A stretch of 35,039 bases of DNA, taken from NCBI RefSeq assembly GCF_030378065.1, contig NZ_JAUCGJ010000050.1:1-35039 (forward strand), in the 5' to 3' direction. The stretch is from Candidatus Venteria ishoeyi (GTDB lineage Bacteria; Pseudomonadota; Gammaproteobacteria; Beggiatoales; Beggiatoaceae). The position numbers and the translations under genes were made by a program. Shown here piece by piece: positions 2,426 through 12,954 of the stretch. The notes beneath the pieces were generated by a model, which saw nothing but the letters and a program-made list of their open reading frames with translations, did no database searches and was not told the origin of the DNA. Every line of letters begins with the position of its first letter. Position 1 is the first letter of the stretch.

Positions 2426-3256
2426 ATGTTATCACTCTACGAATGTGCACAGGAGATAAAAAAGGAAACGGGGTGGTCTCAAGAGCGTATTGGGGCAGAA
2501 ACCGGATTGGGATTGAGCACGATTAGCCGGATTTTTCGTATTCCCGGTTATCGTGGCAATGAAATTTCAAAGGTTTTAATTGGCCAATTACACGATGAGG
2601 TCGTTCCTTCTCCTTTTCCCGCATATCTGGAAATTTTATTAAATCGTTATGAGGGTTTTCGGGAAAAACTCTCACACAAAGAATTTTCAGAATATCTGGA
2701 TTCAACCGAAGTTTTGTTACTCAATCACCGAGCGTTCAGTGATGGTTCTCTGGAAGGTAGTCGTTTACGCTGGTTATTAGGTCATATTGAGTTTGATCGT
2801 GCATTTTATCTGCGCCGGGATCAAATCAATTCAACAGTGCGGGCTTTGGACTGGTATCAGCAGGCACTGGGTACGCTGGAAGATCATGCTGATCAAAAGT
2901 TACTGATACAACGTTATAAGTTACAGCAGTGCATGGTGTCTGCAAAATTTAATAGTTGCAAGCCAGGTACGCGAGCAGATGATCCCAGGATTCAGCAATG
3001 GTTAAGGGATATGGATTACTTAACCATCGTTGAAGCTGTGGTTAAAGAGGATAGCTGGAATTGGATTGCGGCAAGAAACGGACTGATTTCGGCATCTATT
3101 TTGCGTAATAGAGAAAAGTGCTTATTGTTCTGGAATGCAATGCGCAAGGTACATAAGCAATTTCACAATCCGGAATTCACACCGTCACGCGATCAGCTGG
3201 CAGTCGCCCATGACCCGGATTTAATTTGGTTTAGAACACATATCCTTCAGGGGTAA
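2426..3256 (+). CDS. XRE-type HTH regulator with long helical C-terminal domain
   Basis: A 276-residue cytoplasmic protein. Residues about 4-45 form a Cro/C1-type helix-turn-helix (SQERIGAETGLGLSTISRI: positioning helix, turn, recognition helix). The remaining 230 residues match no family I recognise. They look all-helical, and one stretch (about 125-165, ALDWYQQALGTLEDHADQK followed by a second amphipathic helix) resembles a TPR-like helical pair. The ATG at 2426 is supported by AGGTAGGA 7-14 bases upstream. The gene ends 5 bases before a small exported-peptide gene whose ribosome-binding site lies over this gene's last codons and stop, so the two are very probably co-transcribed and translationally coupled. 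An HTH domain plus helical sensor next to a small exported peptide is the arrangement of peptide-sensing regulators, but binding of the peptide is a hypothesis. Confidence 0.7.
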   Translation: MLSLYECAQEIKKETGWSQERIGAETGLGLSTISRIFRIPGYRGNEISKVLIGQLHDEVVPSPFPAYLEILLNRYEGFREKLSHKEFSEYLDSTEVLLLNHRAFSDGSLEGSRLRWLLGHIEFDRAFYLRRDQINSTVRALDWYQQALGTLEDHADQKLLIQRYKLQQCMVSAKFNSCKPGTRADDPRIQQWLRDMDYLTIVEAVVKEDSWNWIAARNGLISASILRNREKCLLFWNAMRKVHKQFHNPEFTPSRDQLAVAHDPDLIWFRTHILQG

Positions 3257-3261
3257 TTTTC

Positions 3262-3441
3262 ATGAAAAAATATTATATAACTGCCTTATTTGTTGCTACC
3301 GGCCTTTATGCCAGTACTGCAATCGCTTCTGATATGGGACGTGTCAGTCAACCGGAAAGAGACATTGCCCGTGATATGGGAAAGGTCAGCACACCGGTTG
3401 CTGTAAAAGTATCAGTACCTCTGATTCAGGTTAAGGGGTGA
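3262..3441 (+). CDS. 59-residue exported peptide with duplicated DMG[R/K]VSxP motif
   Basis: ATG at 3262 is preceded by AGGGG at 3249-3253, spacing 8. The N-terminus (MKKYY, hydrophobic core to about residue 17, then Ala20-Ile21-Ala22) is a classical Sec signal peptide with predicted cleavage before Ser23, leaving a 37-residue mature peptide. That peptide contains the same motif twice, DMGRVSQP at residues 24-31 and DMGKVSTP at 38-45, offset by exactly 14 residues, then a Val/Lys-rich tail. There are no cysteines. It is the last gene of a two-gene unit with the HTH regulator and is followed by a strong terminator at 3508-3547. I do not recognise the family. Possible roles are a signalling peptide, a precursor cut at the repeats, or a small periplasmic factor. 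Confidence 0.7.
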   Translation: MKKYYITALFVATGLYASTAIASDMGRVSQPERDIARDMGKVSTPVAVKVSVPLIQVKG

Positions 3442-3507
3442 GATACACCGTCATCAAGTAAGTTAACATCACTGTAAGCTGCCTGGTAATTTGTCAGGCA
3501 AAATGCA

Positions 3508-3547
3508 AAAATCTTTTTTTGTGCTTTCAAGCACAAAAAAAGATTTT
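3508..3547 (+). terminator. Strong intrinsic terminator after the regulator-peptide pair
   Basis: Perfect 17-bp arms (3508-3524 and 3531-3547) flank a 6-base loop TTTCAA; the stem contains GTGC/GCAC next to runs of seven T and seven A, so it could work in both directions. A smaller stem, TGCCTG (3480-3485) with CAGGCA (3495-3500), precedes it. Confidence 0.85.
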
Positions 3548-3555
3548 ATGTCATA

Positions 3556-3752: not shown

Positions 3753-4136
3753 ATGATTTTTTTAGATCGTATTAAAAAAATCAGAAAGCCCACGGCTTTT
3801 TTTGAGCTAAAACCCCTTTCTGCACAAAATAACCACAATGCCCGCTTAGCCTATTACCGGTTACGCCAAGTGACGGGGGACAAGTGTTCAGATACCACAA
3901 ACATGTCCCATACGGTGATACCGCAAACTGTCAAACCGGCGTTACAGCATGAAAATCTGCCAAGTCAATGCTGTGATCATTATCATTTGCTGGGTGTCAG
4001 CCAAAATGCCAGCCCGATGCAGATACGCGAAGCGGCGCAGCAACAGCTGAATAAAATCCGTGCAGCCTATCAGGTGCTGAGCAATGGTCGCACCCGTCAA
4101 TCTTATGACGCGCGTTTGAACCGGAAACCCACATGA
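3753..4136 (+). CDS. J-domain-like protein lacking the HPD segment
   Basis: A 127-residue protein. I chose ATG at 3753, with GGAGG 8-12 bases upstream, over an in-frame GTG at 3732. The first 75 residues are basic and unrecognised. The C-terminal 50 residues keep the first strand-helix of a J domain (HYHLLGVSQNASPMQIREA) and its last helices (IRAAYQVLSNGRTRQSYDAR). The middle, which normally carries the HPD tripeptide that stimulates DnaK ATPase, has been shortened and replaced by AQQQLNK. By family knowledge a protein without HPD should not activate Hsp70, so this is probably a J-like scaffold or a decayed cochaperone. Its stop overlaps the start of the DUF4231 gene (ATGA), indicating an operon. 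Confidence 0.7.
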   Translation: MIFLDRIKKIRKPTAFFELKPLSAQNNHNARLAYYRLRQVTGDKCSDTTNMSHTVIPQTVKPALQHENLPSQCCDHYHLLGVSQNASPMQIREAAQQQLNKIRAAYQVLSNGRTRQSYDARLNRKPT

Positions 4137-4822
4137 GCAGAGATAAACCAGGGGCAGCCGCAAAATTACTGGCGGATAAGGTGGCTGAGCCTGGTGCTAA
4201 AATTGATATCCGGCATTACATCCAGCAACGCTTGCGCTATCAACAGCATTGGTATGAGCGTCAGGCGAGTAAAAATAAACGCAGTTTCATGCGTATACAA
4301 AGCATTATTATTTTTCTGAGCTTGCTGATCCCGATGGTGGTGGTGACAGAGCCGATAGTCACTTTATTTTTAAATGAGTGGATGCTCGCTTATAGCCAAA
4401 TGGAACTACCCATGAGTTGGGCGAGTATTGCCACGGCTTTATTATCTTCTTTGATTGCCATGTTGGCAGGCATGGAGAAGTTACGACAACCACAAACCCA
4501 TTGGTTTAATTATCGCGCCAATGAGGAAACCTTAAAAAAAGAGGAGTGGATGTTCCGTCTGCGGGTCGGCGCGTATGCCAATTTGCCACTGCAACGGGCC
4601 GAGCGACTTTTGGTTGAGCGGGTGGAAGGGGTGATTTCTTCAGATATTGCGCGCTTTGTTCAAAATGAATATAACGCTGTGGAGGAAGTGCTACCTAAAA
4701 AAGCCAAAGCGCCACAATTACGTACCAACCCGGCTAAAACCCGTTCGGCGGGTCATGCTAAACAGAAGGTTGAGCCAAAGATATTACGCCCTGCAACGAC
4801 AGTGCGTAAACTCAGAGCCTAA
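4133..4822 (+). CDS. DUF4231-type membrane protein
   Basis: A 229-residue protein with an amphipathic N-terminus containing the RYQQHWYERQASKNKRSF segment. Two membrane helices follow, about residues 53-75 and 97-117. After them comes the conserved-looking WFNYRANEETLKKEEWMFR stretch and a basic, Ala/Lys-rich, probably disordered tail. The pattern of a W-Y motif, two transmembrane helices and an E-E-W block matches the DUF4231 family, whose biochemical role is unknown. The start overlaps the stop of the J-like gene by four bases, so the two products may work together at the membrane (inference). The 3' end overlaps the convergent panC gene by 11 bases, leaving no room for a terminator between them. 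Confidence 0.7.
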   Translation: MSRDKPGAAAKLLADKVAEPGAKIDIRHYIQQRLRYQQHWYERQASKNKRSFMRIQSIIIFLSLLIPMVVVTEPIVTLFLNEWMLAYSQMELPMSWASIATALLSSLIAMLAGMEKLRQPQTHWFNYRANEETLKKEEWMFRLRVGAYANLPLQRAERLLVERVEGVISSDIARFVQNEYNAVEEVLPKKAKAPQLRTNPAKTRSAGHAKQKVEPKILRPATTVRKLRA

Positions 4823-9743: not shown

Positions 9744-9745
9744 GG

Positions 9746-11047
9746 AAAATTAAGACAGCCATTAAAATATACCTAACACCAGTATTTCTGTTATCCTGTC
9801 CTAAACTTAAAACAGAGAGGCAAAGCCATGCCCATGCCACGCAAAGCACAAGTAAGCAAACACACCAACGGTCATTATCACTGCATCAGCCGCGCCGTGC
9901 GCCGTGCTTTTTTATGTGGTGTTGATAAGCAAAGTGGGTGTGATTACGAACATAGGCGGCAATGGATATTGGACAGGCTGGAACTGCTTGCCGGGCAGTT
10001 TTCAGTTGAGGTTTGCGCTTATGCCATTATGAGCAACCATTACCATTTGGTACTGCATGTGGATTATGAGCAGAGCTTGACCTGGGATGCTGAAGAAGTG
10101 GTCAAGCGTTGGTGTACTTTGTTTCCACCGCAGGCTTTAAAAGAAAGTGATGGTAAACAGTTTGATGATGAAGTAGTCAGCGCTTATTTTGCGCGGCTGG
10201 CGGCGGATGAGGAAAAGGTGGTCTTGTGGCGCGAGCGTCTGGCAGATTTAAGCTGGTTTATGCGCTGTCTGAATGAGCCAGTTGCACGGCAGGCCAATAA
10301 TGAAGATAAGTGTACCGGGCGGTTTTGGGAAGGGCGTTTTAAATCTCAGGCTTTATTGGATGATGCCGCTTTGATTAGCTGCATGGCGTATGTTGACCTC
10401 AATCCGGTACGCACCGCCATTGCGCAAACCCCGGAAGATTCTGAATTTACTTCTTTTGCAGCAAGAGTTGAGACTGAAAAAAAATCATCCTCAAAATCAC
10501 AAAGCCAATGGCTTTTACCTTTCGCTGAGACTAAAAAGACCGGGAAACTGCAAGCCACGCAGAATGCGCATGTTTGCCTGCCCATCAGCCAGGAAGAATA
10601 TTTTGAACTGGTGGACTGGACCGGGCGTTGTATTCGTGATGGTAAACGTGGCGCTATTCCCGCGCATATTCAGCCTATTTTGCAACGTTTGGAAATCAAG
10701 CAAGATAACTGGATAGATGGCATACAATATTATGGTAATCATTTTTATAAGGTTGTTGGCATTATGCGCCATTTACTGGAAGAAACTGAAAGGCAGGGAC
10801 AGAAATGGTTTAAGGGGCAAAGTGCTGCCCGATTATTATACCAATAACGCATATTTCCATTTTACATTGAACAATGTTTATGGCGTAAAAGTACCGCCAT
10901 AGTTAACTTGTGGCTAATTTTTGGTTTTTTCATGCAATCAGGGTGTTTTTTCTGATTTATTTCTGAGTTTTAATAATTTGACTGGTTGAGGAAATTGGAA
11001 TTTTAGTGTAGTTTTATATTTTTATTTTTTTGGATGTCTTAATTTTT
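9746..11047 (+). mobile_element. REP-associated transposase unit A with inverted ends
   Basis: A complete unit: the left end AAAATTAAGACAGCC (9746-9760) matches the complement of the right end GGATGTCTTAATTTT (11032-11046) at 14 of 15 positions. It contains the transposase gene and a conserved 190-base non-coding tail with the hairpin ATGGCG...CGCCAT at 10880-10900. Unit B (11406-12717) repeats the same DNA almost base for base. No target duplication was seen at the ends. Confidence 0.75.
9828..10847 (+). CDS. REP-associated tyrosine transposase (RAYT), copy A
   Basis: A 339-residue HUH endonuclease of the IS200-like Y1 superfamily, the class that acts on REP hairpins. It carries the HUH pair H71-Y-H73 in MSNHYHLVLHVD, the N-terminal strand HYHCISRAVRRAFLCG, the GRFWEGRFKSQAL segment, and the likely nucleophile Tyr188 in AYVDLNPVR. 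The long C-terminal extension past residue 210 is typical of RAYT proteins. It differs from copy B by about ten residues and has no frame damage, so both could be active. Start: ATG 9828; a second Met is codon 3; AGAGAGG lies just upstream. RAYTs are usually single-copy and domesticated, so two intact neighbours are notable. Confidence 0.9.
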   Translation: MPMPRKAQVSKHTNGHYHCISRAVRRAFLCGVDKQSGCDYEHRRQWILDRLELLAGQFSVEVCAYAIMSNHYHLVLHVDYEQSLTWDAEEVVKRWCTLFPPQALKESDGKQFDDEVVSAYFARLAADEEKVVLWRERLADLSWFMRCLNEPVARQANNEDKCTGRFWEGRFKSQALLDDAALISCMAYVDLNPVRTAIAQTPEDSEFTSFAARVETEKKSSSKSQSQWLLPFAETKKTGKLQATQNAHVCLPISQEEYFELVDWTGRCIRDGKRGAIPAHIQPILQRLEIKQDNWIDGIQYYGNHFYKVVGIMRHLLEETERQGQKWFKGQSAARLLYQ

Positions 11048-11055
11048 CTAAACCA

Positions 11056-11079
11056 AAACCCACGCAAGCGGGTTTTTTT
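11056..11079 (+). terminator. Intrinsic terminator after unit A
   Basis: AAACCC (11056-11061) and GGGTTT (11070-11075), with CGC/GCG extending the stem inwards, are followed by a run of seven T (11073-11079). It lies 9 bases beyond the right end of unit A. Confidence 0.75.
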
Positions 11080-11115
11080 ATGTCCAACCCCAAGCCCTCC
11101 CACCTCTCCAAAAAC

Positions 11116-11397
11116 GGGGACTCCCCACATGTCCCCCAATGTCCCCGCCTGTCCCCTGAAAACCCTGTTCTTTTATACAGTACCTGCAAAAAAATTAATT
11201 AAGTCCCTGATTACAAAGCCAGGGGACACAGGGGACATATAAAAGTTATCAACAAAGAACCCTTGGGTAGCTATAGAGAGAGTACTTTTTTATTATTTTT
11301 TATATAGATAGGCCATTTTTGTGTTACTCATTGATATGTTATACACTGACTATTTTAGGGTTTTAGGTGTCCCTCGTGTCCCCTATGCTATGTTCCC
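11116..11397. repeat. Cluster of GTCCCC motifs, iteron-like
   Basis: TGTCCCC occurs three times at exactly 10-base spacing (11130, 11140, 11150). It recurs inverted as GGGGACA at 11222 and 11231, and forward again as TGTCCCT, TGTCCCC and TGTTCCC between about 11368 and 11397. A GGGGAC also occurs at 11116. Between the clusters lies AT-rich DNA (11281-11340). This fills the gap between the two transposase units, with no gene. Helical-phase repeats with AT-rich DNA resemble protein-binding iterons of a replication or regulatory site; nothing else supports a function. Confidence 0.5.
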
Positions 11398-11405
11398 TGG
11401 AAGGG

Positions 11406-12717
11406 AAAATTAAGACAGCCATTAAAATATACCTAACACCAGTATTTCTGTTATCCTGTCCTAAACTTAAAACAGAGAGGCAAAGCCATGCCCATGCCAC
11501 GCAAAGCACAAGTAAGCAAACACACCAACGGTCATTATCACTGCATCAGCCGCGCCGTGCGCCGTGCTTTTTTATGTGGTGTTGATAAGCAAAGTGGGTG
11601 TGATTACGAACATAGGCGGCAATGGATATTGGACAGGCTGGAACTGCTTGCCGGGCAGTTTTCGGTTGAGGTTTGCGCTTATGCCATTATGAGCAACCAT
11701 TACCATTTGGTACTGCATGTGGATTATGAGCAGAGCTTGACCTGGGATGCTGAAGAAGTGGTCAAGCGTTGGTGTACCTTGTTTCCACCGCAGGCTTTAA
11801 AAGAAAGTGATGGCGAACAGTTTGATGATGAAGTAGTCAGTGCTTATTTTGCGCGGCTGGCGGCGGATGAGGAAAAGGTAGTCTTGTGGCGCGAGCGTCT
11901 GGCAGATTTAAGCTGGTTTATGCGCTGTCTGAATGAGCCGGTTGCACGGCAGGCCAATAAGGAAGATAAGTGTACCGGGCGGTTTTGGGAAGGGCGTTTT
12001 AAATCTCAGGCTTTATTGGATGATGCCGCTTTGATTAGCTGCATGGCGTATGTTGACCTCAATCCGGTACGCGCTGCCATTGCGCAAACCCCGGAAGATT
12101 CTGAATTTACTTCTTTTGCAGCAAGAGTTGAGACTGAAAAAAAATTATCCTCAAAACCACAAAGCCAATGGCTTTTACCTTTTGCTGAGACTAAAAAAAC
12201 CGGGAAACCTCAAGCCACGCAAAATACGCATGTTTGCCTGTCCATCAGCCAGGAAGAATATTTTGAACTGGTGGACTGGACCGGGCGTTGTATTCGTGAT
12301 GGTAAACGTGGTGCTATTCCCGCGCATATTCAGCCTATTTTGCAACGTTTGGAAATTAAGCAAGATAACTGGATAGATGGCATACAACATTATGGTAATC
12401 ATTTTTATAAGGTTGTTGGCATTATGCGCCATTTACTGGAAGAAACTGAAAGGCAGGGACAGAAATGGTTTAAGGGGCAAAGTGCTGCCCGATTGTTATA
12501 CCAATAACGCATATTTCCATTTTACATTGAACAATGTTTATGGCGTAAAAGTACCGCCATAGTTAACTTGTGGCTAATTTTTGGTTTTTTCATGCAATCA
12601 GGGTGTTTTTTCTGATTTATTTCTGATTTATTTCTGAGTTTTAATAATTTGACTGGTTGAGGAAATTGGAATTTTAGTGTAGTTTTATATTTTTATTTTT
12701 TTGGATGTCTTAATTTT
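11406..12717 (+). mobile_element. REP-associated transposase unit B with inverted ends
   Basis: The left end AAAATTAAGACAGCC is at 11406-11420 and the right end GGATGTCTTAATTTT at 12703-12717. Its interior is nearly identical to unit A, with an extra tandem copy of a 10-base TCTGATTTAT-like segment in the 3' tail near 12611-12630. Synonymous and amino-acid differences are few, so the duplication is recent. Confidence 0.75.
11488..12507 (+). CDS. REP-associated tyrosine transposase (RAYT), copy B
   Basis: A 339-residue near twin of copy A with all catalytic features intact: H71-Y-H73 and Tyr188 in AYVDLNPVR. Substitutions are concentrated after residue 190, for example SKSQSQ to SKPQSQ, NAHVCLPI to NTHVCLSI and QYYGN to QHYGN. 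Translation signals are the same as in copy A (AGAGAGG before ATG 11488). The direct tandem arrangement could recombine to delete one copy. Confidence 0.9.
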   Translation: MPMPRKAQVSKHTNGHYHCISRAVRRAFLCGVDKQSGCDYEHRRQWILDRLELLAGQFSVEVCAYAIMSNHYHLVLHVDYEQSLTWDAEEVVKRWCTLFPPQALKESDGEQFDDEVVSAYFARLAADEEKVVLWRERLADLSWFMRCLNEPVARQANKEDKCTGRFWEGRFKSQALLDDAALISCMAYVDLNPVRAAIAQTPEDSEFTSFAARVETEKKLSSKPQSQWLLPFAETKKTGKPQATQNTHVCLSISQEEYFELVDWTGRCIRDGKRGAIPAHIQPILQRLEIKQDNWIDGIQHYGNHFYKVVGIMRHLLEETERQGQKWFKGQSAARLLYQ

Positions 12718-12725
12718 TTTTACCT

Positions 12726-12876
12726 TGGCGTAAAAGTACCGCCATAGTTAACTTGTGGCTGATTTTTGGTTTTTTCATGCAATCAGGGTGTTTTTTTTGA
12801 TTTATTTCTGAGTTTTAATAATTTGACTGGTTGAGGAAATTGGAATTTTAGTGTAGTTTTATATTTTTATTTTTTT
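12726..12876 (+). repeat. Solo 3' tail of a transposase unit
   Basis: About 151 bases repeat the non-coding tail of units A and B, from the GGCG...CGCC hairpin through the GAGGAAATTGGAATTTTAGT segment to the T-rich end. It has no transposase gene and lacks the terminal GGATGTC. The first 8 bases after unit B join directly to it. It shows that the tail can be duplicated or retained independently. Confidence 0.8.
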
Positions 12877-12954
12877 AGAATCTTGTCAGTCAGGATGTGC
12901 GCAAAGCACTGCTCGGGTTGAAAATGTTTCGATGCGCTTACCTGCTAACGAGGC
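12877..12954. other. Short gap between the solo tail and vapC
   Basis: Non-repetitive DNA between the solo tail and the 3' end of the toxin gene; no feature recognised. Confidence 0.4.

Follow-up and report, generated by a model that had tools for sequence, protein, structure and literature searches.

In relatives of Thioploca and Thiomargarita among the sulfur bacteria, a hitherto undescribed pair of adjacent genes encodes a regulator and a small exported peptide with a conserved DM(G/E)RVS stretch; it has the appearance of a peptide-signalling switch, of a type found until now mostly in Gram-positive bacteria. The pair resides in a stretch of DNA of 35,039 nucleotides from Candidatus Venteria ishoeyi (hereafter, the window), which is contig C65 of a 4.4-Mb genome (G000). 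The explanation that fits best, to which we give an even chance, is that of a peptide-sensing regulator module of a diderm bacterium, built like the RRNPP systems or like PatX-HetR. Gene order, conservation, co-occurrence, motif position and predicted fold are the observed basis of this module, from which we infer processing, return and binding of the peptide, the DNA target and the physiological role. Sensing is favored because the association of an HTH with a domain of the peptide-groove type, the translational coupling to an exported precursor carrying a motif, the occasional duplication and the scattered copies resemble a receptor with its pheromone.

Organization of the locus and of the peptide

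The initial annotation described a 276-codon regulator gene and, after a gap of 5 bases, a 59-codon peptide gene, and both reading frames are found where it had set them (Table 1). It also rightly placed the ribosome-binding site for the peptide within the regulator gene: the sequence AGGGG, at the very end of the latter and 8 bases before the peptide ATG, reads as a fair candidate site. The strong terminator supposed to close the unit fared less well. The 129 bases following the peptide gene fold far better than shuffled sequences, yet an 18-pair hairpin was scored as a terminator on the minus strand only, and termination by the two hairpins is best regarded as possible. Promoter-like sites were no more frequent in the window (3 hits) than in shuffled sequence (3.9). 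No shared operator emerged, either from the best common 14-mers located at most 260 bases upstream of seven linked regulators, or from the 14-mers found upstream of ten regulators and three unlinked peptide genes, none of which were better than those obtained in 20 shuffles.

Table 1. Features of the regulator-peptide locus (positions are those of the window)
Feature	Position	Strand	Basis
Regulator with HTH and TPR-like helical domain (predicted), 276 aa	2426..3256	+	ORF; weak HTH profiles at residues 10-38; AlphaFold2 model; homologues
Candidate ribosome-binding site of the peptide gene, within the end of the regulator gene	3249..3253	+	Read from the sequence
Small precursor, predicted to be exported by Sec, 59 aa, mature part SDMGRVSQPERDIARDMGKVSTP...	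3262..3441	+	ORF; family alignment; leave-one-out profile E 2.5e-9 among 133 sequences
First motif, DMGRVS	3331..3348	+	[DE]M[GED]RVS conserved in 10/10 peptides
Second copy of the motif, DMGKVS	3373..3390	+	Second copy in 3/10 peptides
Two hairpins following the peptide gene, where the transcript may end	3480..3550	+	Folding z -4.9; second hairpin called a terminator on the minus strand only

Elsewhere in the window (3753-4822), the gene for a DUF4231/SLATT-like membrane protein is overlapped at its start by one that encodes a partial DnaJ domain. Positions 9744-12879 contain a duplication, the copies of which are spaced 1660 bases apart; identical blocks of 300 bases start at 9744 and 11404, and two ORFs of 339 aa, assigned to no Pfam family, begin within these blocks.

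The precursor was said to carry a clean Sec signal peptide and a mature part of 37 residues. By inspection, both statements hold, because the peptide opens with an MKK n-region and a hydrophobic core, and has A-I-A just before SDMGRVS, and the mature length is correctly predicted. By inspection of the alignment, all ten peptides of the family have a basic n-region followed by a hydrophobic core, and a small residue where cleavage is likely. Past the signal sequence, the peptides are for the most part hydrophilic, and no membrane segment is obvious by eye in the alignment; the linked peptides of seven regulators measure 40-62 aa. Every peptide is recognized, among 133 sequences, by a profile from which it was left out (E 3.3e-8 to 4.6e-12); the profiles for members of the two closest pairs excluded the partner as well. 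Nine of the ten members ranked second behind decoy d118 and one ranked first, but d118 is the peptide encoded by contig C52 of G014 (G014:C52) with a longer start, and all members rank first once it is set aside.

The mature peptide of the window carries the sequences DMGRVSQP and DMGKVSTP, the starts of which are 14 residues apart, as originally noticed, and repeats of equal quality turned up in 0.0004 of 300,000 shuffles of the mature sequence. The duplication is therefore real in the peptide of the window, but is conserved in only three of the ten peptides (window, G014:C52 and G030:C157, with spacings of 14, 16 and 16 residues), and does not hold as a trait of the family. By contrast, all ten peptides carry [DE]M[GED]RVS with its start 0-3 residues past the likely point of signal-peptidase cleavage, whereas their tails diverge. 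Five columns are invariant, the start M and the M-R-V-S of the motif; the residue preceding the latter is D, and E once. Judging from the alignment, the rule of the family is one exposed N-terminal motif, not the doubled motif. In the comparison of the G014:C52 and G030:C157 peptides the six motif residues feature no amino-acid change, while the pN of the tail is 0.32. The tail pN is 0.52 for the peptides of G002 and Thiomargarita PC08, a pair uninformative on selection, because its motif lacks silent changes as well.

Distribution of the pair

Close relatives of the regulator reside in genomes of Candidatus Halobeggiatoa (classified as Gammaproteobacteria, Thiotrichales, Thiotrichaceae), Thioploca and Thiomargarita, or in genomes labelled Thiotrichaceae or Thiotrichales. 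Of 42 genomes of the family, 8 hold full-length regulators, nine in all, and fragments occur in G026 and G041. A tenth regulator, frameshifted near the end, comes from Thiomargarita PC08 (L037), which entered the analysis through a scan of one genome per species, is possibly outside the 42 genomes, and is excluded from the counts referring to them. Family homologues are 48-56% identical to the regulator of the window, and the five other regulators which are linked to a peptide and unbroken measure 276-280 codons, against 276 in the window.

A short peptide, predicted to be exported, follows seven of the ten regulators (window, G002, G007, G021, G026, G033 and PC08). In six of the seven pairs the genes either overlap by 4 bases (G002, G033) or are at most 9 bases apart (3 in PC08, 4 in G007, 5 in the window, 9 in G026); the gap is 142 bases in G021. 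No peptide adjoins the regulators of G014 and G030, nor the second regulator of the genome of the window (L012, G000:C54:19115-19936, minus strand), which is 48% identical to the first and might read the peptide of the window. Three unlinked peptide genes, identified by the seven-row profile and then by a DNA pattern scan, are located in G014 (contigs C17 and C52) and G030 (C157), genomes in which the only regulator has no peptide beside it. To the question whether the peptide always follows an HTH protein of this family, the answer is accordingly yes for seven of the ten peptides, and no for three, which are confined to regulator-bearing genomes. The opposite possibility, that the peptide is found mostly away from such regulators, does not apply, since seven of the ten intact copies adjoin one. 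One of the unlinked copies (L126, G014:C17, 5757-10414) encodes a DMGRVS peptide and lies between the genes for an unassigned 339-aa protein and for an SLT transglycosylase, with a gene of the phage-integrase family nearby; this locus may be a mobile element equipped with its own signal gene.

When the 42 genomes were searched with the ten-peptide profile, E values below 1e-12 were obtained at 9 places in 8 genomes, the same 8 which carry a full-length regulator. The 9 sequences are rows of the profile itself, so the informative part is the absence of the peptide, at the same threshold, in the other 34 genomes, and co-occurrence does not translate into a probability, because the 8 carriers are related, though bearing six genus labels. 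A diverged peptide could be missed in a regulator-free genome, since the seven-row profile scored the unlinked peptides only at E 0.003-0.2. Six weak matches to the peptide profile (E 0.014-0.05) fall in ORFs of at least 163 aa or in a frame with a stop, as established by reading two of them (G004 and G028) and judged from the table for four. A scan of the DNA for the pattern GANATGGRNMGNGTNWSN, which does not favor carrier genomes, hit 43 places in 21 of the 42 genomes. By eye, a signal sequence precedes the motif at 11 places (9 genes), all in the 8 carriers, and is missing at the other 32; G000:C65, G002:C1:2007776 and G021:C333 were already known from earlier searches. A second pair of G026 has decayed, leaving remnants of both genes side by side, in which VMADMGRLSS is still readable.

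In a pattern-based scan of one genome per species, 7 loci were found, all from Thiotrichales, and all further relatives came from the class to which these belong. Run on 369 of its genomes, the regulator profile matched, outside the family, just two genomes, both from a single other family, plus one HTH-sized sequence at E 5e-4; the peptide profile matched G000, G021 and one sequence with two stops, at E 9e-4. A wider regulator profile, run on 398 genomes of the phylum, detected the genome of the window and two weak, partial matches. Viral contigs, phages and plasmids contained no relative of the regulator, and a tblastn search of plasmids with one peptide gave only E 3 or worse. The ADMGRVS DNA pattern occurs at 23 stretches of viral contigs; all were rejected, as none follows a convincing signal sequence.

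A distant branch of the regulator includes 11 copies distributed in 9 of 20 genomes of another gammaproteobacterial family, all from one genus. Three of them were compared with the regulator of the window, and are 25-26% identical to it. Three of the 11 (L154, L155, L162) overlap by 4 bases the downstream gene for a lipoprotein of 93-94 aa ending in SDDMERLD; around the other eight no short exported peptide was found among ORFs of at least 25 aa within 900 bases. The lipoprotein gene keeps the amino acids of its last 20 codons (pN 0.02-0.06, pS 0.20-0.94), and is hence genuine, its end being under constraint. The likeness of DMERL to the DMERV of the first branch, for which the chance is about 0.001 in shuffled sequence, is no more than suggestive, because the motif was loosened after DMERL had been seen. 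If true, one regulator family would read motifs of one kind, presented by two unrelated carriers.

Fold of the regulator and likeness to known systems

The regulator was thought to consist of an HTH and a long helical, partly TPR-like domain. Helical repeats of the TPR-like type are borne out by the predicted fold, but the HTH is weak by profile and poorly modelled. HTH_3 matches the regulator of the window at E 0.0064, under its Pfam cut-off; among 12 members, HTH_31 and HTH_3 match weakly six and five, respectively, whereas Pfam TPR families match none at E 5. Other than the weak HTH, family scans produced scattered matches and nothing convincing. The AlphaFold2 model, derived from an alignment of seven sequences, has a mean pLDDT of 80.5. 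The HTH part reaches only 38-53, while from residue 61 on, where the model is nearly all helical, blocks of ten residues range from 82 to 97, with one at 78.

Foldseek ranked the TPRs of kinesin light chain first (TM-score 0.50). ComR of Streptococcus suis came third (E 0.058, TM-score 0.21), a Rap protein fourth (E 0.072, TM-score 0.23) and PlcR fortieth (E 0.33); TM-scores of RRNPP receptors are 0.21-0.23, and no match of this search reaches E 0.001 or is better than E 0.05. With a second structure aligner, kinesin light chain scored Z 12.8 (rmsd 4.3 over 182 residues) and RapI Z 11.1 (rmsd 4.1 over 159 residues), values which, by the aligner's own warning, helical repeats attain easily, and the scores of 14-3-3 and other helical proteins resemble that of RapI. 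Solved peptide receptors (ComR, Rap, RapI) are thus among the matches of the two programs, and superhelices of this TPR-like kind often bind peptides. RRNPP receptors were found neither in a profile search of PDB chains at E 1, nor among the five NCBIfam families matched by the regulator at E 1. The C-terminal domain is TPR-like by its model, and its likeness in fold to RRNPP receptors is weak. The possibility that this domain belongs to an unrelated enzyme or phage family finds no support, the fold being TPR-like and the scans having revealed no such family. Residues invariant in 12 members of the two families include W116, Y144, Y164, N176, W213, N218 and W268; RRNPP receptors hold the peptide through conserved asparagines that line the groove. 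Kinesin light chain, the best match, carries a TPR superhelix which binds short linear peptides, but the likeness is in fold only, as the protein is a eukaryotic cargo adaptor with no HTH.

The RRNPP (or RRNPPA) receptors of Firmicutes include those of the systems Rap-Phr, NprR-NprX, PlcR-PapR, PrgX-PrgQ and Rgg-SHP, as well as ComR and AimR. The program RRNPP_detector, which was applied to Firmicutes and viruses, selects candidates by the length of the receptor (250-500 aa) and its TPR and DNA-binding profiles, and by the size (10-100 aa), Sec signal and spacing (-60 to 400 bases) of an adjacent precursor (PMC10075063). Intragenic duplication is reported for RRNPP precursors too (PMC10075063). 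The mature signal is usually placed at the C-terminus of the precursor, a rule to which PMC10075063 notes exceptions. Receptor length, precursor size, the Sec-type signal (by inspection) and spacing in the window pair are all within this scheme; the regulator has, by prediction, C-terminal helical repeats, and the peptide exhibits an intragenic duplication. By contrast, the host is a diderm of the Gammaproteobacteria, the regulator matches in sequence neither RRNPP receptors nor TPR profiles, the motif is set at the mature N-terminus and is followed by a variable tail, and some precursor genes are unlinked to a regulator. The pair was not filed as RRNPP because it lacks a TPR profile match and sequence homology, carries the motif at the wrong end and was not found in Firmicutes, the scan of one genome per species having yielded Thiotrichales only; at most, and by analogy, it may work like an RRNPP system.

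The initial annotation regarded the architecture as of Firmicutes type, and unusual in a Gram-negative chromosome. The conserved pair does occur in a diderm, but Firmicutes are not the only precedent, because the PatX-HetR system of filamentous cyanobacteria is diderm too (PMC12756182, PMC7761841). As described there, PatX is exported by Sec, must leave the cytoplasm to mature, matures outside it, and inhibits the DNA-binding protein HetR; its short motif is HRGTGR, cleavage by the peptidase PatP has been reported 27 residues before the motif, and patX is stated to accompany hetR in every case (PMC12756182, PMC7761841). The setting, diderm and multicellular, the small exported protein with a short motif and the DNA-binding regulator are shared, in part by prediction, by the sulfur-bacterial pair. 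Yet, the regulator is of another family, HetR being absent among the 19 Pfam families matched by 12 regulator members at E 5, and the motif is different, as RG(S/T)GR is not found in the sulfur-bacterial peptides, in which [DE]M[GED]RVS occurs.

Alternative roles of the exported peptide

In the model proposed the two genes would be made together and constitute one functional module. The small precursor would be exported by Sec and cut by signal peptidase, exposing a mature N-terminus which begins with, or near, [DE]M[GED]RVS. The motif, trimmed to an oligopeptide, would most likely re-enter the cytoplasm via a permease of the Opp/Dpp type, bind the TPR-like groove and alter the DNA binding of the regulator. 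In this way the module may report peptide export, cell density, or filament neighbors sharing a periplasm. A way back for the peptide may exist, because every one of the 8 carriers encodes peptide-binding proteins of the permease type (PF00496), a feature which does not discriminate, since 41 of the 42 genomes have them. The complex was modelled by reading the Thioploca regulator through its stop into the in-frame peptide: the tethered peptide did not dock, the motif block having a pLDDT of 51 and the tail of 33-54, which is weak evidence either way. The architecture assigned to peptide-sensing systems is real and conserved, while the sensing function is something we infer.

Sensing is not given more than an even chance because a second explanation, less likely though to be reckoned with, is compatible with almost all the evidence, and neither an operator nor docking was found. 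The regulator may simply switch the production of an exported peptide which acts outside the cytoplasm, on the envelope, on neighbors or on a surface receptor, and never returns, its mature N-terminus binding an extracytoplasmic partner. That the motif closely follows the likely cleavage site in all ten peptides is what would be expected if a free mature N-terminus matters, and speaks somewhat for such one-way control; unlinked peptide genes, including the one near an integrase gene, go in the same direction. The co-occurrence of regulator and peptide fits one-way control as well, but is not required by it, no operator common to regulator and unlinked peptide genes was found, and RRNPP-type HTH-TPR proteins are ligand sensors. 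That the genes form a toxin-antitoxin-like or immunity pair, in which the HTH protein represses a harmful small exported peptide, looks improbable. The two-gene unit with an HTH protein and the joint decay of both genes in G026 would agree with it; on the other hand, the mostly hydrophilic mature peptides (by eye) are devoid of an obvious membrane segment, peptides persist on other contigs with no adjacent regulator, and scans gave only weak HTH-type and scattered matches, among them those to an antitoxin family with an HTH (E 0.13, one of nine members) and to the JetA defence model (E 0.0016, 15 bits). Very improbable, finally, is that the small ORF is a functionless by-product, and the regulator an ordinary HTH repressor. 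Three of the ten family regulators, and eight of the 11 distant ones, do lack an adjacent small exported ORF, but leave-one-out E values of 3.3e-8 or better, the presence of the peptide in all 8 genomes with a full-length regulator against its detection in none of 34 others, and the existence of unlinked copies are hardly compatible with a by-product.

A bolder picture can also be drawn, which we consider less likely than not. Giant sulfur bacteria, several of which are filamentous, would run a circuit of their own, in which the fresh-cut N-terminus DM(G/E)RVS of an exported precursor is the message, read inside the cell by the HTH-TPR regulator, and extra message genes are located elsewhere, including one near an integrase gene. 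This would be a Gram-negative counterpart of RRNPP sensing, acting possibly along the filament as PatX does in cyanobacteria. Gene-encoded peptides read by cytoplasmic TPR regulators are treated as a trait of Firmicutes, and the signals of Pseudomonadota as typically small molecules (PMC10075063). A conserved predicted module in Thiotrichales would extend the peptide-sensing principle to diderms, the peptide being released into a periplasm that the cells of a filament may share. Among the titles and openings of abstracts listed in literature searches, those on Beggiatoa, quorum sensing and peptide included no peptide signal for this group, and those on RRNPP in Gram-negatives or Proteobacteria and on tetratricopeptide regulators no report of such a system in it; DMGRVS was not mentioned in the portion of the literature covered. 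The six-residue motif can be synthesized and tested directly.

In three loci a third small ORF is found after the peptide gene (L004, 2532-2771, reverse complement; L007, 2458-2664; L037, 4984-5169), matching no Pfam family above cut-off. In L008 and L010, which represent two genera, genes encoding tandem peptidoglycan-binding domains reside downstream of the module (reverse complement).
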